IMG/VR virus record: IMGVR_UViG_3300009502_000230
Location: 1-21,371 of that record
DNA: 21,371 bases
Source of the DNA: a virus
Reading direction: 5' to 3' (one strand)
In this document: piece by piece, positions 10,268 through 21,371 of the stretch
Position numbering within the stretch: position 1 is the stretch's first letter
Layout of the letters: each line of letters starts with the position of its first letter
Notes under the pieces: model-generated
Databases searched by the model: none
Told to the model about the DNA's origin: nothing
Seen by the model: only the letters and a program-made list of their open reading frames with translations
Position numbers and translations under genes: made by a program

Positions 10268-11473
10268 ATGGATGCGACCAATGTGCGACCAGTTGAGCCC
10301 ATCGAACTGAACGAAGCCAACATCAAGAAAGCCAAGCCTGGTGACGTGCTGAGGGATGCAAAGATCAGCGGCCTGCACATGCGTTGCTTCGCTGGGCGGA
10401 AGTCATTCTATCTCTACTACCGCACCAAGGCCGGGGTGGAGAGGAAGCCCAAGCTGGGGGACCACGGCACCATCACCCTGGCCCAAGCCCGGACCATCGC
10501 CGGGGAATTCTGGACTGAGATAGGCGCTGGCCGTGACCCCAGCCAGGCCCGGAAGGAAGCCAAGGCAGAGCCCACCCTGGAGCAGCTGTGGGATGAGTTC
10601 TGGAAGCGCCACGCTTCGAAGAAGAAGACCAGCGCCGAGGACAAGCGGGTGTGGGAAAAGTTCTTCCGGGCCCCTGCCCCCAAGCCTGGTGAAGACCCCC
10701 TGCCCCAGGCCCCCTTCAATACCCTGGCCCTGTCCAAGCTGTCCCATCTGGACTACACCCAGATGGCGGACCTTCACGAAGCCATCACCAAAGAGAACGG
10801 GCCCATCCAGGCCAACCGGGTGCTGGCCATGCTGTCCACCATGTTCAACTTCGGCATGAAGCCTCTGGAGTGGGTCAGCAAGAACCCCACGGAAGGGGTC
10901 AAGCGGAACAAGGAAACCAAGCGGAAGCGCTACATGAAGGGTGAAGAGGCTGCGGCCATCGCTGCGGTCCTGCATGAGAAGACCAAGGACAAGCACAACA
11001 CGGGCAGCGTGGCCTTCCTCTACCTGCTGATCCTGACCGGGGCCCGCAAGGGGGAAATCGCCAAGGCCAAGTGGACCCAGCTGCACGGGAACAAGCTGGT
11101 GTTGTCTGAGCACAAGACAGACCAGGACGGTGAAGACCGAATCATCCAGCTGCCCCCGGCCGCCATGGAGGTCATCGGCCAACTGCCCCGCACCAGCGGC
11201 ACCATCACCGGCATCCAGTCCCCGGTGAAGCTGTGGCAGGCCGTGCGGGTGGAAGCCAAGTGCCCGGATCTGCGGATGCACGATCTTCGCCACAGCTTCG
11301 CCAGCGCAGCCATCAGCGCCGGGAAGACCCTGGCCCAGATCGGGGAACTGCTGGGTCACGCCAGCCAGTCCACCACCAAGCGCTATACCCATCTGCTGGA
11401 TGAGGCCGCAGCGGAAGCAGCCTCAGACGCAGCGGATCAAATTACAGCCAAGATGGGCCGGATGTCGCTCTGA
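10268..11473 (+). CDS. int: Tyrosine integrase with DUF4102 N-terminal domain
   Basis: This 401-residue phage integrase starts at an ATG with GGAGG 7 nt upstream. Residues 1-95 are the DUF4102 arm-binding domain (GDVLRDAKISGLHMRC, then SFYLYYRTKAGVERKPKLG). About 100-215 is the core-binding SAM-like domain. The catalytic domain has Arg260 (LTGARKGEI), Lys283 (EHKTD), His338-x-x-Arg341 (MHDLRHSF), His364 (LLGHAS) and the nucleophile Tyr373 (TTKRYTHLLDE), so all the usual residues are present. It would recombine the adjacent tRNA-Lys-derived core with the host gene. Unusually, two TGCGACC repeats lie inside its first codons (10273-10290). The gene converges with the - strand lysis genes. Confidence 0.95.
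   Translation: MDATNVRPVEPIELNEANIKKAKPGDVLRDAKISGLHMRCFAGRKSFYLYYRTKAGVERKPKLGDHGTITLAQARTIAGEFWTEIGAGRDPSQARKEAKAEPTLEQLWDEFWKRHASKKKTSAEDKRVWEKFFRAPAPKPGEDPLPQAPFNTLALSKLSHLDYTQMADLHEAITKENGPIQANRVLAMLSTMFNFGMKPLEWVSKNPTEGVKRNKETKRKRYMKGEEAAAIAAVLHEKTKDKHNTGSVAFLYLLILTGARKGEIAKAKWTQLHGNKLVLSEHKTDQDGEDRIIQLPPAAMEVIGQLPRTSGTITGIQSPVKLWQAVRVEAKCPDLRMHDLRHSFASAAISAGKTLAQIGELLGHASQSTTKRYTHLLDEAAAEAASDAADQITAKMGRMSL
10273..10290 (+). repeat. Right pair of TGCGACC arm-type repeats
   Basis: TGCGACC occurs at 10273-10279 and 10284-10290, again 11 bp apart and in the same orientation as the left pair at 10043-10060. This pair overlaps codons 2-8 of the integrase. Integrase bound here could repress its own synthesis. 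Confidence 0.6.
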
Positions 11474-12370: not shown

Positions 12371-12748
12371 TCACTCCGTCACGGTGATGGTGGTTGGATT
12401 CAGGAACTTCACAGCCTCACGGCCAGGTCGGGGAATCACGATGCAGCCCTTGGACTCCTGGCCATACTTGGCCTTGTCCATGGCAGGCCCGTGGATGTAG
12501 AAGGATCCACGCCCAAACATTTCGTTGATGTGGTCGGGTCTGAGGTAGGCCACCATCGGGCCAAGCCCAGGATGCTGGGCTTCCCATGGCTGCACCCAAT
12601 ACAGCCCTTTGGGTAGCGGGCCTGTGCAGACCACATCCTCGTAGCCTGGATTGTTCTTGCCGTCCCCACGCCCCGACCACCCAGTGGTGATGAGCGTGCC
12701 ATCGTCGGACGTGATGTGGCCTGTGGTCTGAGAGTAGTTGAGATTCAT
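12371..12748 (-). CDS. DUF2778 (Tlde1-like) L,D-transpeptidase-fold enzyme, probable endolysin
   Basis: This 125-residue protein resembles DUF2778, the domain of the type VI effector Tlde1. Matching elements are YSQTTGHITSDDGTLITTG near the N-terminus, GWSGRGDGKNNP (23-34), CTGPLPKGLYWV (41-52), EMFGRGSFYIHG with His86, and ESKGCIVIPRPGR with the probable nucleophile Cys102. Known members cut or exchange stem peptides in peptidoglycan. Position directly before the holin makes it the likely endolysin; it has no signal peptide, so release should depend on the holin. The second of two adjacent ATGs (12748) is chosen because GAGG lies 5 nt upstream. A longer open frame up to 12985 runs antisense-free through the preceding gene but has no family similarity there. 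Confidence 0.8.
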   Translation of the reverse strand: MNLNYSQTTGHITSDDGTLITTGWSGRGDGKNNPGYEDVVCTGPLPKGLYWVQPWEAQHPGLGPMVAYLRPDHINEMFGRGSFYIHGPAMDKAKYGQESKGCIVIPRPGREAVKFLNPTTITVTE

Positions 12749-13305
12749 CATGCCCTCACAATTCCAGGTGACTGAATGAGATTGACGCTGACAGCAGCGC
12801 CCACAGCATCTACCCACCCAACCTGCTGGAGAAGCTGGCCGGTGGTGGTGGTCGGGGTCAGAGTCGTTCCCCCCGATGCCGTTAAGAAAATAGGCTTGCC
12901 GATGTCTGCGGCTACGAAGCTGCCCACGGGGATGGCCGAATTGATGCCAGTCAAATAGACCGTGGCCGTGGCCCCAGCAGCGCACCCTGCCAGGACAAAT
13001 CCATGGACTGGCTTTGTCGCGTCTGCGTTGTCTGCGGGCCTAGCCTTCCGTGTCCCGGAGGCGTCGTGTAAGTTGATCCACTGCCCCGCTGTGAGGGTGG
13101 ATGATGCTAGAACCTGGATGGTTGGAAGCGCTGCCCTGCTTGTGTCACTCGGGTGGACATGCGCTCCGTCCGCCCACAGCCCGCTGGCCCCAACTGCTGC
13201 TGTTCCGTTCATAATCGGCAAGGCCGCGCTTGGGGTGGGTAGCGCGGTGGAGGACTCAACGAGGTAGGCGCCGGTCTCAGATAGGGCCAAAACTTTAGTC
13301 ACCAT
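12748..13305 (-). CDS. Tail fibre/decoration-like structural protein
   Basis: This 185-residue protein is rich in Ala, Gly, Thr and Val with a beta-strand pattern. A segment GTAAVGASGLWADGAHVHPSDTSRAA (about 35-60) is typical of phage tail-fibre and appendage proteins. The second half (TAGQWINLHDASGTRKARPADNADATKPVHGFVLAG, then VYLTGINSAIPVGSFVAADIGKPIFLTASGG) looks like a beta-sandwich found in phage virion proteins. Start ATG 13305 has GGAGGG 5 nt upstream. It lies between a fibre gene and the endolysin in the late operon. It is probably a virion appendage component, perhaps an adaptor or decoration; the exact role is unknown. Confidence 0.65.
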   Translation of the reverse strand: MVTKVLALSETGAYLVESSTALPTPSAALPIMNGTAAVGASGLWADGAHVHPSDTSRAALPTIQVLASSTLTAGQWINLHDASGTRKARPADNADATKPVHGFVLAGCAAGATATVYLTGINSAIPVGSFVAADIGKPIFLTASGGTTLTPTTTTGQLLQQVGWVDAVGAAVSVNLIQSPGIVRA

Positions 13306-13882: not shown

Positions 13883-15841
13883 CTAGATGAAGTAGGTGAC
13901 AGTCATCTGCCAGTATTGACCGGTCAGCGTGTTAGCCGGGATGTTGGAGATGGCCGTGGCGTTGGGTGTGACTGAACCCGAGATCCTCTTGGTGGTATCC
14001 CCACAGCCCCCGGAAGCCGCTGCCCCTTGGGTGCTGTTCGCAGCCACAGGAAGACCCGTGATCGTTGATCCAGCGGTTGCCACTCCATCCGAGCAGTAAA
14101 TGGTGGCTGTGATCTGCCTACCGATCCGAGTGTATTGGGCCGAGATGACCGATGGGTTGGGGCTGAACCCAGTGAACCCAGGAGTCCAGGTTCCTTGCGC
14201 GTAGGAGAGGCCCTTGTCGGTGATGTCAGAACAAGCCGTGATGACATACCCGGCTAGGACAGCATCGGAGTGGTCAGCCTCCAGTTTCCTAACGATGGCC
14301 CGGTCACTCTTGCAATTTGAAATAGTTCCCGTCCCGCCAAGGGTCAGGTTGAACATCTTGTTTGGCTGATTGCCTGCCCCGGAGTCGGGCGTTCTCACGT
14401 TATTGATACTTACTGCGTTACCTTGGACGTTGATCCCGCACCCACAGGTGGCATTGGGGACGTTGATGATGGCAACGTCCGATAGCGACTGGATCTGGTT
14501 TAGGTTGATAACATAAGCTGCTGCTGCGGTATAAGGCATACCCTCAACATTCAATCCCTGGATATGGGTGTAAGACCCACCAAAATAGCAGCAGGCGTCA
14601 GCCGTAATATTCCGCATCTGGGAGGCACCAGTGTCCATGTAGTAGGCATACGATCCCGCACGGCAGTCAGTTACTTCCAGGTTGTCGAAGCTGTTGTAGA
14701 TCAACCCATTCGCAGACCACCAACCGTAAGCGGTGACGCCACCCGATACGGTGATTCCCCGAAAGGAACACATGTAGATGACACCGTAGAGCCGGACACC
14801 CGTGGACACGTTGCTGATGAAGATGTCGTGGAAAACTGACTGACTGACTGCCGAGTTGGTTGCGGTGGTCAGGATATTGATTCCAGAACCAGGAGTAGAG
14901 CCAGCACCACAGACAAGCCCAAACCCACCAATGTCCATCCCGACCATCGCAAAGTTATCTGGGCAGGCTACAGAGATGGCGTAGACTGCGGCAGAGTTGG
15001 TGTAGAGCTCGATGATCGTAGTTTGGTTGCCGTCACCGATCATACGGAGCCTGCCGACGATGCTCAGGGTTCCGGTAATCTTGTATGTTCCCGCTGGAAG
15101 CCTAAGCGTGACTCCATTGGCGACGCAGTAGTTAATCGCGGCCTGGATCCCCAGGGTGCTGTCCACCACGCCGGTAGGGTCAACCATGGGGCCGGAAACA
15201 CCATTCGCATAGAAGTCCAGGACACTGATGTGTTCCTTGTTCTTGGCGTGCTGAGTTGTCCCGATGGCCCCAGTGGCAGGCTGCTTGACTGCTACCAGGG
15301 CATCACCGTTGGTGATGACTGTGGGATCAATCAGCGCAGCGGGCGTGGTTCCGGTAGCTGGATAGGTGGTGAGCTTCGCCCCGGTAGCATCAAAGCCGAG
15401 CATCTGTGAAGGGGTGGATGGGGGCAAAGTTGGGTCCACCCCCGTAACGCTGGCGTCTAGCACAATGGCCCTGCCAAGCTGTTCCTGCTGCTGCTGGTTC
15501 TGCATAGTCAGCAAATCCAACGTGGCTTCAAGGCTGGCAGCTGGTAGTGGGTCATTCTCAACAAAGTGGGTCAGCTGCGTGTAGGGGGCATCACGAAGGA
15601 TGCTGACTTTGACCCCTGATGCAGGGGCCACTGAGAACGTGATAGTCCCACCCGCCGTAACTCCTGTCCCGGCGACTGTGAAATCACTGTTCAGGACCGG
15701 GTAAGTGGATAGATTTGTAGTCGTGTCGGTAAGGATCACTTCCAGGTGGGTAGGGTCCAGGAAGTAAAACGGGACGGTAAAGGCAGCGGTGGAGCCGTTG
15801 CCGTTGTAGTCCGCACGGTAGGTGGAATTCTGGACTGTCAT
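13883..15841 (-). CDS. Tailspike with T7 gp17-like N-terminus and pectate-lyase-like beta-helix
   Basis: This 652-residue tailspike begins with a T7 gp17-like head-binding domain (TYRADYNGNGSTAAFTVPFYFLDPTHLEVIL, then FVENDPLPAASLEATLDLLTMQNQQQQEQ). After a linker comes a beta-helix region, about 200-540, that starts like pectate-lyase superfamily spikes (ISVLDFYANG, then DSTLGIQAAINYCVANGVTLRLPAGTYKITGTLSI). The last 105 residues form a tip domain shared with the next gene. It would attach to the short tail and bind or degrade a surface polysaccharide. ATG 15841 is used because GGGAG lies 5 nt upstream; ATG 15859, six codons earlier, has no Shine-Dalgarno. It has its own promoter in front. 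Confidence 0.88.
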   Translation of the reverse strand: MTVQNSTYRADYNGNGSTAAFTVPFYFLDPTHLEVILTDTTTNLSTYPVLNSDFTVAGTGVTAGGTITFSVAPASGVKVSILRDAPYTQLTHFVENDPLPAASLEATLDLLTMQNQQQQEQLGRAIVLDASVTGVDPTLPPSTPSQMLGFDATGAKLTTYPATGTTPAALIDPTVITNGDALVAVKQPATGAIGTTQHAKNKEHISVLDFYANGVSGPMVDPTGVVDSTLGIQAAINYCVANGVTLRLPAGTYKITGTLSIVGRLRMIGDGNQTTIIELYTNSAAVYAISVACPDNFAMVGMDIGGFGLVCGAGSTPGSGINILTTATNSAVSQSVFHDIFISNVSTGVRLYGVIYMCSFRGITVSGGVTAYGWWSANGLIYNSFDNLEVTDCRAGSYAYYMDTGASQMRNITADACCYFGGSYTHIQGLNVEGMPYTAAAAYVINLNQIQSLSDVAIINVPNATCGCGINVQGNAVSINNVRTPDSGAGNQPNKMFNLTLGGTGTISNCKSDRAIVRKLEADHSDAVLAGYVITACSDITDKGLSYAQGTWTPGFTGFSPNPSVISAQYTRIGRQITATIYCSDGVATAGSTITGLPVAANSTQGAAASGGCGDTTKRISGSVTPNATAISNIPANTLTGQYWQMTVTYFI

Positions 15842-15896
15842 GGGGTCTCCCAAGGACATCCAGGCTTATCCACGGTTGGGGCCCGACGATGTGGTG

Positions 15897-15925
15897 ATTA
15901 TAGGTTGATGCGGCTGTTATCTCAA
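15897..15925 (-). promoter_or_regulatory. Sigma70-type promoter for tailspike and lysis genes
   Basis: On the - strand TTGAGA (complement of 15920-15925, 5 of 6 to -35) is followed after exactly 17 bp by a perfect TATAAT (complement of 15897-15902). It lies in the largest gap of the late block, 80 nt between the ejection protein stop and the tailspike start, with its -35 overlapping that stop codon. Transcription should begin near 15890. On the + strand the same spot reads TGTGGTGATTATAG, similar to the motif at 3822-3835. Confidence 0.7.
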
Positions 15926-18900
15926 TGACTGGGTGGCGCGGAAAGGCGCTTGTTTACTTCGCCCACGATCCGGTGGACCTCGGCTTGCCTCTGCTCAATG
16001 GATAGGGCAGCTGCTTTCCCGGCCAAGTTGGACCGTTCGAAGGCCACCTTGAAGGCCCGTTCCTTCACCAGGTCTGGCATGTAGTCCCACCCGGGGCTGT
16101 TCACCATCTGGTGCAGCACGTTGTAGGCCATGTGGCCCGAGGCATCGCCGAAGGCATCCCGCTGTTCAGGGGTCAGTTCGATCTTGCCCATGCCGGTGCC
16201 ACCGGAAGGCAGGTTCAGGTTCTTGGGGGCCTTCTCTGCGCCTACGCCAAGGCGGGCCGCTTCCTGCCTCACCTTGTCATCGGACTGACCCTTCATGGTC
16301 ACCGGGGAAATCCACCCCACCCTGGGGTCATCCACGATCGGTTCCCCGTAGGGGTCACGCTGCGGGGGCAGCATTTCCCGAAGGCCGGGGATCCGGGACT
16401 GAACGGCGTCCCTGATGCTGGCGATTTCCCGCTTGAACGGGTCCATGAGCGTGGCGGACTGGCCGATGATGTTGGGCACGGCACCGGCCGCCAGCTTCTG
16501 GATGAAGGCTGATCCCTTGCGATCGGGCTGGCTCATGGCGTCCACGAAGGTGGTCAGGCCCGCCATGAAGGTTTGTTCGGTGACACTCTTGCTGAAGGCC
16601 ACGGACAGCATCTTCACAGCCTTGTCCTGCTCATCGTTGGTCATGTGCTTGAAGACTTCCACCATGTCGGCGGACATCCCAATGGCCGTGCCCACGGGGT
16701 GGAAGTTCTGGTAGGAATACCATGTGTTGTTGATCTTCACGCTGTAGGGCTGCCAGCCGGAAGCCAGCAGGACATGGCGCTTGGCGGGGTCGGGTTCCCC
16801 GGATCCAGAGACATTCCCGGCCATGGCGAGGCTGGCCACCAGGGCGGAAATGCCCGTGCCCATGGCCAGTTCGGCTGCGGCCTGGTGGGCGGGCACGCCA
16901 CCTTCCTTCCAGGCTGCCTGCCACTCAGGGACCAGCGGAGCCACGGGTGTGAGGCGGGCCATTTCCTTGAAGATGTTGGCGGGCGTGCCGATGAACGGGA
17001 AGATGAACTTCAGGATGGGGATGTCTGCCTGGAAACCCAGGGGGTTCAATCGGGTCTTATTCACGAAGTCAGAGAACCGCTGCGTGGTCTCGCCCATGGG
17101 GGCATGGAAGCTGGCCCGTTCCCCGAACGCCTGGATTTGTTCGATGTTGGCCTCAGGCGGATTGGCGGCCAGTTCAGCCACCCGCTGCCTGAATTCGTTG
17201 GTCAGGGGATTCAGGTTCTCAGCCGAGGCCTGGCGAACGGCCAAGGCGTAGGCTTCGCCCCGTTCGTTGATGACCCGGAACAAAGCACCATCAGCACCCA
17301 GCAGGCGGAAGGGTGTTCGGATTACGTCACCCTTCATGCCTTCGATGGCCCCTGCGCGATGGCTGGATTCCATCGCCGTGTCAGCACTCTGCTCGGGGTG
17401 GCCCACATCCATGAGAACTTCACGGGCAGCAGCCAGGCCATCCTTGACCCCCATCAGATTGCCGATGATCCGGCCCAGAGGTTCGGCCAGGCTCATCCGT
17501 TCCTTGGGGGCGTCCACAAGGCCAGTCTCGGAAGCCAGCTGGTGGATGTTGCTGAAGGCCGTGGCCACCATGTCCACCAGGGGGTGGATCGCCGTGAAGG
17601 TCAGGTTACCCATGAACTTCTTTGCGTGGGTGATGGGCCCGGAAACCAGCCCAGCCTTCCACCCTTCCACGATCTTGTCCCACGTTCCGGCCTTGTTGGC
17701 GTTCCGGGCGGCCCTGGCCAGCTGCTCGGGGGAGTCAATGTCCTTGGCCATTTCCAGCAACTTGGCCGGATCCCCGCCATAGAGTTCCACCAGCTTCTGG
17801 ACGCTTTCACCCTGGGTCTTCAGTTCCTTGATATGCTTCAGGTAGTTCAGGGCCCGGCCCAGTTCGGACGATGCCCCGGTGAAGTCAGCCTGGATCATGG
17901 CCAGCCGATGGATGGCGGCCAGGGCGTCCATCTTCATGGAGTCCGTGACCACGTTGCCGCCTTCGTTCACCACCTGGATGGCGGCTGCGGCTTCCTTCGT
18001 GGCCTGCATCAGCATGTCGCCCCGGATCTTCAGTTCCACAGCGTTGGCCGTGTCCCCAGCCTTCCGGCCTTCCATGACCTTGTTCAGTTCCTGGCCGGTC
18101 ATCGCCGCATACTGCTCGGCTGCCTGGGCCTCAGTCTCAGCCCAGGTCTGCGTGCCGCCCCGGGCCTTGTCGATTTCAGGCTGGTAGACCTCAGCCATGC
18201 GGGTTTCAAGGGCCCGCAGATCGTCGGGCCCTTCGATGTATTTCATGTTCAGCTGGTGAGACAGCTTGGTTTCGGGCAGGGCCGCCCAAGGCTGATACAG
18301 CACCTGCTCTGCCTGGGCCGGGGTGCCTGGGAAGGCATCGGCTGCGGCCTGGTTGGAAGCCAGGGGCTGCAGAGAGGGGGGCACGGCCGGGGCCTCGCCA
18401 GCCGCCTTCATAGGCGTGGGGTCGAAGGCCTGCCTGCGGGCGATTTCCTCAGGGGTCCAGTGGGTGGCATCCGTGACGTTCTTGATGATCCGGGGGTCGA
18501 AGATATTCCAGGCGGGCTTGCCATCCTTGCCGAGGTCGAAGGCCACGCCGTTGAAGCCCATCGACTTTAGGTGGTCGCTGAGGGTGCCCCCACCACCGTA
18601 GCGATTCGTTTCACTCTTCAGGCTGTCTACCAGAGCCGCCAGCACTCGGGCGCCATTCACCGGCTTATCTGACTCCAACCCGAAGGCCAGCAGTTCCTGG
18701 GGTGAATAGATCCGATCCGACCGGGCATCGAAGGTCACCAGCTTGGACGTGTCCACGTAGATGGCCTGGGTCTGCCCTTGGCCGCCCTGGTAGGTGGTGG
18801 CATCGGCATGGTCCCGGGCCACGTAGATCCCATCCCCGGCCTTGCCCGTTTGGCCAATCGACATCCAGGGGGATCCGTTGGTTCCTTCGTTCCCATGGAA

Positions 18901-20190
18901 GCTGAAGTAGGGGGGCCGGGGGCCAGCGGCGATGTCTACGCCATTCAGGTTGATGACCGGAACGTTCCTGCGCTGGTAATCCTGCAGCTTCGGATTGGCC
19001 TCTAGCTCTGTGGTTTTACCTGTGAAGCGTTCTGGCGCAGGGCCCAGCTGATCGGATCCTCCCCAGGTTCGGGTGGTCGGGTCCCAAGTCGGACGCACAT
19101 CTCGTTGAACGGTTCCTGTGTCGGATCCGGGTATTTCTCCGGGTCCGGGTGCGTGATCTTGAACAGGGGTTTCTTGGACATGCGTTGCCTCACCTTCCAG
19201 TGTAGGTGCTTGGGCGTTGGGGTCAACGATCCGCTGCCACAATTCAGGCGTGGGTTCACCCCCCACCAGTTCGTGTTCCAGCATGGGGTCCTGCTTCGCT
19301 GCGGCCATGGCCTGAAGAGGTTCTACGCCAGTCTTGGCGTAGACGGTCCTCAACTTCCCGGCGATGCCGTGGGCGGCCTTCATGCCCCCCATGAGGATGG
19401 CTGCGTTCATAAAATCCTCTGGCTCGGGCAGGCGGCCTTCCAGGGCAGCAGGGGCCACGGTCATCACGCCGACCTCAGACCCTACGCCAGCCGCGCCAGC
19501 CACCAGCTTGCTGCCTGTGGCCCCCATGACCCCCTTGGTGACCACCGACCCGGTGCCCGCAGTCAGGGCGCCGACCGTGGCGTCGATCGCCGTGTGCTTG
19601 ATGCCGATGCCGACCCGGCCCAGGAAGTCCCCGGAACTGGTCACCTGGTCCAGGCTGTAGGCCGTAGTCAGCGCTTCCCGAATGGCCGTGGGCACGGCGA
19701 AGGCAGCTGCCCCACCTGCAGCGATGGCACCCGGGCCCGTGGGCAGACTCAGCGCCCCCACACCCAGGGCGCCTGCGGTCATGGCAGGCAGATCGCCGAT
19801 CATCTGGCCTGCACTGGCGGTCAGCTTTTCATACCACTTGGCGTGCTGAGGATCGAGCACCACATCAGGCAGGCGGCCCCGAGTGAGCAGGCCCCCCGAG
19901 GATCCTTCCAGCCCGGACACGAAAGCATCCCCCACACCTGACCCGACCCGCTGGGGCTTCACAGGTTCAGCGGCCATCTGGGCGCTATCCATGGCGCCCT
20001 TCAGGCCGCCGACGAAGCCCCCGGACATGAAGCCCAGGCCAGTCCGCATGACAGGGTTGAACAGCTTGCCCGCCATGGCCCAACGAGGATCGGGCTTCCC
20101 TTGACCCAGCTGGTTCGGGACCAGAATGGGGTCAGGGTTGCTGTCCTGCGGGGCAGCGGGGATCAGGATGGGGTCTTCGTTGCCACTCAC
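15922..20190 (-). CDS. Large polyvalent ejection protein with ADP-ribosyltransferase-like domain
   Basis: This 1422-residue virion protein is of the polyvalent type injected with phage DNA. Residues about 130-170 and 200-250 are Gly/Ala-rich and hydrophobic, fit for membrane insertion. Residues about 428-572 resemble an ART-PolyVal ADP-ribosyltransferase: FSFHGN with His432, GDGIYVARDHADATTY (453-468), SMGFNGVAFDLG (543-554) and NIFDPRIIKNV (562-572). A long helical part follows, about 650-840. The segment VSGPITHAKKFMGNL (about 849-863) and the hydrophobic stretches near 1058-1078 and 1105-1125 are typical of large podovirus ejection proteins. The GTG start at 20190 has AGAGG 5 nt upstream and overlaps the preceding stop (GTGA). 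Roles in DNA transfer or host modification are inferred. No other catalytic domain is evident. Confidence 0.75.
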   Translation of the reverse strand: MSGNEDPILIPAAPQDSNPDPILVPNQLGQGKPDPRWAMAGKLFNPVMRTGLGFMSGGFVGGLKGAMDSAQMAAEPVKPQRVGSGVGDAFVSGLEGSSGGLLTRGRLPDVVLDPQHAKWYEKLTASAGQMIGDLPAMTAGALGVGALSLPTGPGAIAAGGAAAFAVPTAIREALTTAYSLDQVTSSGDFLGRVGIGIKHTAIDATVGALTAGTGSVVTKGVMGATGSKLVAGAAGVGSEVGVMTVAPAALEGRLPEPEDFMNAAILMGGMKAAHGIAGKLRTVYAKTGVEPLQAMAAAKQDPMLEHELVGGEPTPELWQRIVDPNAQAPTLEGEATHVQETPVQDHAPGPGEIPGSDTGTVQRDVRPTWDPTTRTWGGSDQLGPAPERFTGKTTELEANPKLQDYQRRNVPVINLNGVDIAAGPRPPYFSFHGNEGTNGSPWMSIGQTGKAGDGIYVARDHADATTYQGGQGQTQAIYVDTSKLVTFDARSDRIYSPQELLAFGLESDKPVNGARVLAALVDSLKSETNRYGGGGTLSDHLKSMGFNGVAFDLGKDGKPAWNIFDPRIIKNVTDATHWTPEEIARRQAFDPTPMKAAGEAPAVPPSLQPLASNQAAADAFPGTPAQAEQVLYQPWAALPETKLSHQLNMKYIEGPDDLRALETRMAEVYQPEIDKARGGTQTWAETEAQAAEQYAAMTGQELNKVMEGRKAGDTANAVELKIRGDMLMQATKEAAAAIQVVNEGGNVVTDSMKMDALAAIHRLAMIQADFTGASSELGRALNYLKHIKELKTQGESVQKLVELYGGDPAKLLEMAKDIDSPEQLARAARNANKAGTWDKIVEGWKAGLVSGPITHAKKFMGNLTFTAIHPLVDMVATAFSNIHQLASETGLVDAPKERMSLAEPLGRIIGNLMGVKDGLAAAREVLMDVGHPEQSADTAMESSHRAGAIEGMKGDVIRTPFRLLGADGALFRVINERGEAYALAVRQASAENLNPLTNEFRQRVAELAANPPEANIEQIQAFGERASFHAPMGETTQRFSDFVNKTRLNPLGFQADIPILKFIFPFIGTPANIFKEMARLTPVAPLVPEWQAAWKEGGVPAHQAAAELAMGTGISALVASLAMAGNVSGSGEPDPAKRHVLLASGWQPYSVKINNTWYSYQNFHPVGTAIGMSADMVEVFKHMTNDEQDKAVKMLSVAFSKSVTEQTFMAGLTTFVDAMSQPDRKGSAFIQKLAAGAVPNIIGQSATLMDPFKREIASIRDAVQSRIPGLREMLPPQRDPYGEPIVDDPRVGWISPVTMKGQSDDKVRQEAARLGVGAEKAPKNLNLPSGGTGMGKIELTPEQRDAFGDASGHMAYNVLHQMVNSPGWDYMPDLVKERAFKVAFERSNLAGKAAALSIEQRQAEVHRIVGEVNKRLSAPPSH

Positions 20191-21371
20191 TTGGACCTCT
20201 GCCGCACGTTGCCCTTGTCATCCAGGTAGGCTTCCCCGGGCTTGGCGTTGTCCCTGCCCTTGGGAAGTTGAGCCTTCTGCTTGTCCACAGCTGGGGCCAA
20301 GGCTGGCGCCCCGTTGTGCATGAAGGAAGACAGCCGATCTTTGCCGCCCAGGAATTCTCGGCTGCTGGGGTCGATCAGAACGCTGGGGTCTTCGCCCTTG
20401 GCCCGCTTGTCAGCCACCTTGGTCTGAAGATCGTTCCACCAGGTGTAGTAAGCGTTGACCGCCACTTCAGGCTGGACTGAGCCCTCAAGGCTCCGGGTGA
20501 ACCCTGCGTAGGCCGTGTCCTGCAGCACCTTCATACGGCGGCCAAAACCTGCACTGTCTCCATCCTTGGACTGTTCGAAGACCCCCATCAAGGCGTTCCG
20601 TTCCTGGAAGCTGATGCTGCCCGCCATGTAGGAATCCTGGATGGGCTTGAAGCTGAATGTCTTGGTGGGGTCATCGGCCGCAGCGTGGATCATTCCATCC
20701 AGGCGCCGGACCTCTTCAGGGTGCTGCTTGCTTTCGTGGTCAGCCCGCAGTTCCCGCTGCCTGCGTTCGTAGGTGCCGATCATGTGCTGGATCTGGGCAG
20801 AGGTCAGGGTTGTGTCCTCTGCCACGGCCTGGACATCGAACTTGCCGAACTTGGTAGGGTTGAAAATCTGGCCATCCAGTTCCTTCATGCGGGTTTCCTG
20901 GACCTTCTTTTCCTGATACTCCTGCTCAGACCTGGCCTTCTCAGCCATGCCCAGCTTCAGGTGAGCCAGCCGCACGGCCTCACCGAACAGGTGGTCCTGC
21001 TGCTCGGAAGACAGATTCTTCAGCAGGGGAATGGTGGGGATGTCCACCTTGGCCGTGGGCGCCGGTTCCTCGGGCGGGGCGTCCTGGGCCGTGGGTGCAG
21101 GGGTTTCCACAGGCACCATCCCCGCCTTGGTCATCACCGCGCCGATGTAATCCTTGGTGTCGGTCGGAAGGTAGCTGGCCCAGTTGGTCCCATACTGCGC
21201 GGTCAGATCGCCCAACTTCAGCGTGCCCATGTGATAGGCGCCCAAGGCCATGGTGTAGTCCCCGCCGAACTTGTTCAGCAGGGTGCCCATGGCCTGGGTC
21301 TGGTCCTTGAGGCTTTCAGCGTTGGGCCCGGCCACGTCCGCCTGGGCCATGGCGATGTTGGGGTTCACGTT
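20187..21371 (-). CDS. Virion protein with lytic transglycosylase (SLT) end, 5' part outside window
   Basis: At least 394 codons are visible; the frame stays open to the window edge, so the N-terminus is missing. The first about 85 visible residues match the second half of a Slt-type lytic transglycosylase domain. These are AMGTLLNKFGGDYTMALGAYHMG, then YLPTDTKDYIGAVMTKAG, where A-x-x-AYN-like and TxxYV-like motifs are expected; the catalytic Glu would lie outside. A Pro/Ala-rich linker follows, then about 270 residues of charged helices without a recognised family. A transglycosylase joined to a long helical tail, next to a large ejection protein, suggests an injected protein that opens peptidoglycan for DNA entry. 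Its stop overlaps the GTG of the next gene. Confidence 0.75.
   Translation of the reverse strand, partial: NVNPNIAMAQADVAGPNAESLKDQTQAMGTLLNKFGGDYTMALGAYHMGTLKLGDLTAQYGTNWASYLPTDTKDYIGAVMTKAGMVPVETPAPTAQDAPPEEPAPTAKVDIPTIPLLKNLSSEQQDHLFGEAVRLAHLKLGMAEKARSEQEYQEKKVQETRMKELDGQIFNPTKFGKFDVQAVAEDTTLTSAQIQHMIGTYERRQRELRADHESKQHPEEVRRLDGMIHAAADDPTKTFSFKPIQDSYMAGSISFQERNALMGVFEQSKDGDSAGFGRRMKVLQDTAYAGFTRSLEGSVQPEVAVNAYYTWWNDLQTKVADKRAKGEDPSVLIDPSSREFLGGKDRLSSFMHNGAPALAPAVDKQKAQLPKGRDNAKPGEAYLDDKGNVRQRSK

Follow-up and report, generated by a model that had tools for sequence, protein, structure and literature searches.

Among the described systems closest to the locus reported here are gp16 of phage T7 and the injected multidomain proteins known as polyvalent proteins. 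T7 gp16 carries a peptidoglycan hydrolase at its N-terminus; a review (PMC8954989) also describes the move of this domain to another gene in other phages, and assigns T7 gp16 a cytoplasmic C-terminal domain and a periplasmic N-terminal one. For polyvalent proteins, PMC5512222 already documents ADP-ribosyltransferase (ART) and GNAT domains in injected multidomain proteins, domain accretion, and an H-Y-D site for the ARTs. A survey puts ARTs in 30% of myoviruses versus 3% of siphoviruses and podoviruses (PMC9503650). The literature we covered—mainly titles and the openings of abstracts, with subscription papers thinly represented—contained no description of a cargo slot in a gp16-like protein. 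T7 gp16 is not known to have such a slot.

Here we analyse an ejection protein gene in a 21,371-base virus record (the window, meaning the whole stretch of DNA under analysis, itself a fragment of a genome). Sequence comparison indicates that a conserved scaffold accepts several cargoes at a single site, interchangeably, and that the predicted ART in this protein is one of them. This cargo slot is the main point of our report, and it was missed in an earlier sequence-only reading of the window. That reading had correctly located the gene itself, an open reading frame (ORF) at 15922–20190 on the minus strand, with 1422 aa, a GTG start and a 4-nt overlap with the stop of the upstream gene. The gene, its parts and its neighbours are as follows.

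20187..21371, minus strand: upstream gene, the end of a lytic tail/transglycosylase-type protein, cut by the contig end (phrog_28504, E 4.3e-07)
15922..20190, minus strand: predicted gp16-like ejection (internal virion) protein (phrog_6651; tblastn relatives)
19300..19968, minus strand: N-terminal scaffold, residues about 75–297, kept in relatives with and without cargo
18259..19302, minus strand: cargo slot, residues 297–644, 348 aa here versus 57–86 aa in empty relatives
15925..18258, minus strand: C-terminal scaffold, residues 645–1422, from sequence comparison with relatives
16264..17028, minus strand: phrog_6651 match within the C-terminal scaffold, residues 1055–1309 (PHROGs)
13883..15859, minus strand: tail fibre/spike gene that follows the ejection gene after 62 nt (strong PHROGs matches)
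10268..11473, plus strand: tyrosine integrase, adjoining the point where gene direction switches

By homology, the product of 15922–20190 is a predicted T7 gp16-like ejection protein: phrog_6651 (internal virion protein) matches residues 1055–1309 with E 1.2e-33, and tblastn finds 94 phage records down to 2e-35, related mostly in the C-terminal part, at least 28 of which are annotated "internal virion protein" (28 of the 40 listed). The protein had been called giant, which is too strong a word for 1422 aa when PMC8954989 gives 609–1337 aa for gp16-like proteins and relatives of the present protein reach 2687 aa. Its gene is flanked by a putative peptidoglycan hydrolase gene and a tail fibre gene, as a gp16-like neighbourhood would lead one to expect. 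Pfam finds no match in the contig-end-cut upstream gene, whose resemblance to lytic tail proteins comes from PHROGs alone; among the relatives (numbered with L), the gene preceding the ejection gene encodes an SLT transglycosylase domain in L004 (60.7 bits, Pfam), while its counterpart in L002 matches nothing in Pfam at E<=0.01. The tail fibre/spike gene matches the T7 fibre N-terminus under the Pfam cut-off and has strong PHROGs matches. The other half of the window encodes an SNF2-type helicase, an exonuclease, an ssDNA-binding protein, DNA polymerase A, a primase-polymerase and the tyrosine integrase; since an integrase is present the phage, taken to be a podovirus, is probably temperate.

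The slot was bounded by an N-side anchor, LPEPEDF...YAKTG, and by a C-side anchor at residue 645. Orthologues were gathered in three scans, which left 51 distinct loci with a related ORF after 13 loci had been removed as copies; the slot table holds 35 loci and the window (36 sequences), and outside it stand L048 (a fragment), L052–L066 (with a match only behind the slot) and L015 (without an ORF match). Slot length in these 36 sequences is bimodal—16 are empty (57–86 aa), 19 are loaded (159–1603 aa), and one, L050, is cut by the contig end. The boundaries are unsure in L044, whose N part aligns poorly.

Loaded and empty slots occur in close relatives. Of 760 aligned C-scaffold residues, 718 are common to L009 (202 aa slot) and L010 (79 aa), as are 195 of 220 in the N scaffold; in their DNA, 424 bp in L009 stand against 55 in L010, between flanks that are 79% and 90% identical. 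C-scaffold residues are likewise shared at 537 of 741 positions between L031 (470 aa slot) and L029 (79 aa), at 567 of 761 between L021 (190 aa) and L024 (84 aa), and at 461 of 740 between L004 and L003. A quick tree was built from the scaffolds of 34 rows, with L014 and L050 left out as incomplete, and 16 of its 31 inner branches are starred. On this tree the loaded or empty state needs at least 14 changes, the maximum possible being 16 given 16 empty rows. ART presence needs at least seven changes on the same tree, with eight rows coded as ART, two of them weak (L018 and L043). The comparison shows that the slot gains, loses and exchanges predicted enzyme modules; contigs are taken as given here, so some of the gains and losses could be assembly errors. 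The contigs of L009 and L014 have 99.99% identity across 9188 bp and then diverge abruptly at the slot end except for a 163-bp stretch, a break that reflects either recombination or chimeric assembly and that we do not count as evidence.

Of the 20 slots that are loaded or cut off, Pfam covered 19 (all except L014, whose cargo reads like that of L009), and PHROGs and NCBIfam covered 10. The Pfam family ART-PolyVal scores above its cut-off in the slots of L004, L006, L031 and L050 and falls short of it in those of the window, L038 and L043, with DUF3990 matching weakly in L018. GGDEF is above its cut-off in L031 (36.1 versus 23.8 bits), and GNAT is below its own in L004, L018, L020 and L043; a SPOR match in L038 lies just over the cut-off (21.3 versus 21), inside the ART stretch of that locus. 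At E<=0.1, eight of the 19 slots have no Pfam match (L002, L008, L009, L012, L036, L040, L044 and L045), and for two of these PHROGs does give a ParB-like match, L045 (E 8.7e-06) and, weakly, L036. HExxH motifs, identified by eye only, are present in L036, L038, L040 and L044, and the cargoes of L008, L009, L012, L021 and L047 belong to no clear family.

The kinds of cargo include ART, GNAT-like, GGDEF and ParB-like domains. Two slots hold two effectors each—L031, with GGDEF and ART above their cut-offs, and L004, with a GNAT-like match below and an ART above—and the slot of the window holds one recognised effector, the ART. In L031 (6312–7721) the GGDEF domain (36.1 bits) comes before the ART (90.4 bits) within the slot, and it is possible that this GGDEF is an injected cyclic-dinucleotide enzyme. 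The ejection proteins of L036 (1445–9505) and L038 (1916–9634) measure 2687 and 2573 aa, of which about 1,500–1,600 aa are cargo; phrog_9880 (unknown function) matches part of the cargo, and the HExxH motif is found near the cargo end.

The cargo of the window, with the residues that align with an ART active site, lies at the following positions; codon coordinates were computed from residue numbers.

18415..18987, minus strand: predicted ART (ADP-ribosyltransferase-like) module, residues 402–592 (Pfam, profile comparison, motifs; predicted model)
18895..18897, minus strand: codon of H432 (FHG, predicted strand 1)
18823..18825, minus strand: codon of Y456 (GIY, predicted strand 2)
18496..18498, minus strand: codon of D565 (FDP, two residues past a predicted strand)

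The sequence-only reading, which proposed a profile search against ART-PolyVal as a check, is borne out in its observation and partly in its interpretation. ART-PolyVal (PF18760) is the sole Pfam match in the whole protein up to E 1, at residues 431–576 (E 0.0024) and over profile positions 10–137 of 140; the whole protein scores 19.1 bits and the slot 18.8, short of the curated cut-off of 31.2, and the module was therefore tested by profile comparison. The window family (n=3) aligned by hhalign to four cargo ARTs (L031, L050, L004 and L006) scores 52.9 with probability 95, versus 19.3 for the best of 200 column shuffles and 13.5 and 10.5 for reversed profiles. Against nine ARTs, its own family excluded, the window module alone scores 43.0 (best of 30 shuffles 18.5); the L002 slot scores 35.0 (best shuffle 15.6) and the L004 slot 103.0 (15.8). 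Six non-ART cargoes of the slot (L020, L021, L008, L047, L040 and L045) score 10.1–17.1, two of these negatives, L040 (17.1 versus 14.8) and L008 (12.7 versus 12.4), slightly exceeding their own 30 shuffles. By the same profile L009 (20.2 versus 16.7), L018 (27.4 versus 23.1) and L043 (19.6 versus 15.5) are weakly ART-like. The L012 cargo was rejected as an ART, scoring 8.7, under its own shuffles. The ART-type domain that the earlier reading had seen in the ejection protein thus stands on profile and motifs, which support a divergent ART-like domain at residues about 402–592; support from the fold is less firm.

The family of this module so far consists of L002 (55% identical over the module) and the bacterial locus L069 (39%). 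No relative of the module itself was found at E<=1 in 50,697 phage records; scans of viral contigs and of MAG contigs, both of which need short shared peptides, returned one contig each, again that of L002 and that of L069. One of 396 genomes drawn from the phylum of the L069 MAG has a module relative, and it is the same MAG. The N-terminal motif of the module, YQ.RN...GV.I...PRPPYFSFHG, was found in L002 and L069 only. NCBIfam and PHROGs give no match in the slot of the window, and no PDB relative of the module is significant by sequence; a match to I-MsoI (E 0.00013) was taken as chance, the fused dimer adding up two weak matches.

The FHG...GIY...FDP pattern recognised earlier is present as H432, Y456 and D565, which align with the H-Y-D of ART-PolyVal (H and Y lying within strands in the model), so that the site reads H-Y-D and not H-Y-E-like as first proposed. 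In a 12-row alignment the window retains HG, G-Y, the A..Y helix, GF-G and FDP..IK. One could suppose that the module is a degenerate ART, binding nucleotide or protein or acting as structural filler without catalysis; its low Pfam score would fit, as would the L069 sequence, which as aligned retains H and has neither Y nor D, and several other cargo ARTs in the 12-row alignment, in which W stands in place of the Y or the D has been replaced. However, H, Y and D are all kept in both the window and L002. The module is also better conserved between these two (55% identity) than the left linker (25%), the right linker (46%) and most of the C scaffold (41–46%), which we read as constraint on the module itself, although identity is higher in the N scaffold (66%) and at the C-terminal end (60%). 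Relatives free of cargo exist, so the module is not needed for ejection as such; on balance, we regard a non-catalytic module as unlikely.

Structure prediction, another check suggested by the sequence-only reading, gave a model that matches ARTs from an alignment that contained ARTs. A prediction from the three closest sequences reached pLDDT 40 and was not used; with the 12-row alignment, the best of five models reached a moderate pLDDT of 72.4 and pTM 0.67 (the others 54–60), and since other ARTs are among the 12 rows the model could lean towards ARTs. Foldseek with this model gives no PDB match at E<=0.001, and the best 50 of its 212 PDB matches are ARTs or ART-like almost throughout. Against viral models, 26 matches fall within E<=0.001, and several of them carry the name PolyVal ADP-ribosyltransferase; Burkholderia phage Bp-AMP4 is one row of these structure matches. 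VIA-align 2, which compared the 769 chains ranked highest by Foldseek, puts residues 1418–1600 of 9k3a_B first (Z 8.1, rmsd 4.3, 135 aligned) and then ARTs at Z about 6–7; Z of about 6–8 can reflect a mere common arrangement.

The chain 9k3a_B, from the cyanophage A4 pre-ejectosome, corresponds to A4L_27 of Anabaena phage A-4L, with a match over all 1717 residues. Its ART-like stretch contains the sequence SLYHGT...GSGTYFS, and comparison of residues 1380–1620 with the nine ARTs gives a score of 34.0, versus 16.3 for the best of 30 shuffles. The A4 structure paper (PNAS 2025) places the pre-ejectosome in the capsid in its title, given in PMC12810830; from this structure and the ART-like stretch together, it is very probable that a virion has already revealed such a stretch inside the ejection protein of a podovirus. 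In the A4L_27 gene itself (L084, 20116–25269), a ParB-like stretch is visible by eye just ahead of the ART-like one; Pfam on A4L_27 names neither. An ART-PolyVal domain (71.6 bits) also occurs at the C-terminal end of a portal protein (L073, 1–1881).

ARTs with non-protein substrates exist as well, KptA and DarT being the cases for comparison. The predicted ART of the window could in the same way act on nucleic acid or a small molecule, or merely cleave NAD+, an account that differs from our best explanation in substrate alone. The best solved-structure match of the ART profile is KptA, though weak and not significant (E 0.072), and the fusion to a macro domain in L069, with its SIR2 gene, speaks for ADP-ribose chemistry on any substrate; PMC5512222 groups the ARTs of polyvalent proteins with protein-modifying ARTs, and we consider a non-protein substrate doubtful. 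The L069 gene (1160–3147, uncultured Holophagaceae MAG) encodes the module relative fused to the macro domain (137 bits), with the SIR2 gene adjoining—perhaps a system for ADP-ribose sensing or reversal in which the ART has been retired.

The target of a delivered ART might also be a competitor. The ejection protein would then be a polymorphic toxin, carrying an antibacterial ART with its immunity protein encoded adjacent, as in Bxa, an ART fused to a virion component that is toxic to bacteria and comes with two immunity proteins (PMC11699363). The phage has an integrase and the cargoes are polymorphic, both of which suit a toxin, and downstream ORFs compared for 12 loci include some without counterparts: ORFs of 83, 224 and 203 aa after the L002 ejection gene (about 12486–13160) and one of 115 aa after that of L043, so a cargo-linked gene may exist there. 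In the window, however, the tail fibre gene begins 62 nt after the ejection gene and the upstream neighbour overlaps it, and no free gene for immunity was seen directly beside the ejection gene; as the record covers only a fragment of the genome, immunity may be encoded elsewhere. L004, L006 and L018 have a long ORF (859, 776 and 737 aa) 13–89 nt downstream, and the 131-aa ORF after the loaded L031 has a 33%-identical counterpart after the empty L029. A toxin aimed at competitors seems improbable to us.

The explanation that we prefer, and hold to be likely as a whole, is a gp16-like scaffold with an exchangeable slot and a divergent H-Y-D ART delivered to the host cytoplasm. By homology and the A4 precedent, the ejection protein would be packaged in the phage head and ejected together with the DNA, carrying the ART into the cytoplasm. 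There, going by its family, the ART would use NAD+ and attach ADP-ribose to a host target ahead of phage gene expression, and this modification would disarm defence or redirect host metabolism; host-protein modification or counter-defence by the predicted ART is plausible. Cargo turnover would be quick because hosts and host defences change quickly. ARTs use NAD+, GNATs acetyl-CoA and GGDEF enzymes GTP, and from this chemistry of its cargoes the slot is predicted to face the cytoplasm after ejection. Hydropathy gives one stretch above threshold in the window protein (residues 1105–1123) and a second in several relatives, within the N scaffold before the slot, so the membrane side of the slot is not fixed by sequence.

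Beyond this one protein, there is in our judgement an even chance that gp16-like ejection proteins of a wide podovirus group are natural protein-delivery vehicles with a single internal port for unrelated enzymes. Such a port would take anything between zero and about 1,600 residues, apparently with ejection unharmed. If this is true, phages swap their first-strike effectors faster than the injection machine, and the part of an ejected protein that reaches the cytoplasm can be traced by following the cargo. Close relatives with empty and loaded slots are matched pairs for the effect of cargo in the first minutes of infection. A search for new effectors might also start from the slot, given the eight of 19 slots unmatched by Pfam.

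Compared with known systems, the module of the window shares with ART-PolyVal a near-full profile coverage, H-Y-D and the motif order HG / G-Y / A..Y / GF-G / FDP..IK, and differs in its score under the curated cut-off and in its own N-terminal motif. The C-terminal scaffold matches phage proteins named T7 gp16 or internal virion protein D; the hydrolase lies at the N-terminus of gp16 itself, whereas the window has such a putative domain in the upstream gene. A4L_27 likewise has an ART-like stretch inside a podovirus ejection protein, but near the C-terminus, at residues 1418–1600 of 1717. T4 Alt, to which the sequence-only reading likened the domain, holds as an analogy of delivery only, both ARTs being carried by the virion; Alt has an R-S-E site and belongs to another clade, as PMC5512222 describes, and the window has H-Y-D. 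Bxa, a MuF-ART of a Bacteroides prophage, is also an ART fused to a virion component, with a MuF carrier, a C-terminal ART and adjacent immunity genes (PMC11699363); none of these was seen in the window, and the ejection protein has no Pfam match to a MuF domain up to E 1. The polyvalent proteins (PMC5512222) have an overlapping repertoire of ART, GNAT-like and ParB-like domains and HExxH motifs (the last by eye here), mixed in one protein that is presumably injected; in contrast, the cargoes described here share one fixed position, a slot in a gp16-like scaffold that close relatives have either loaded or empty.
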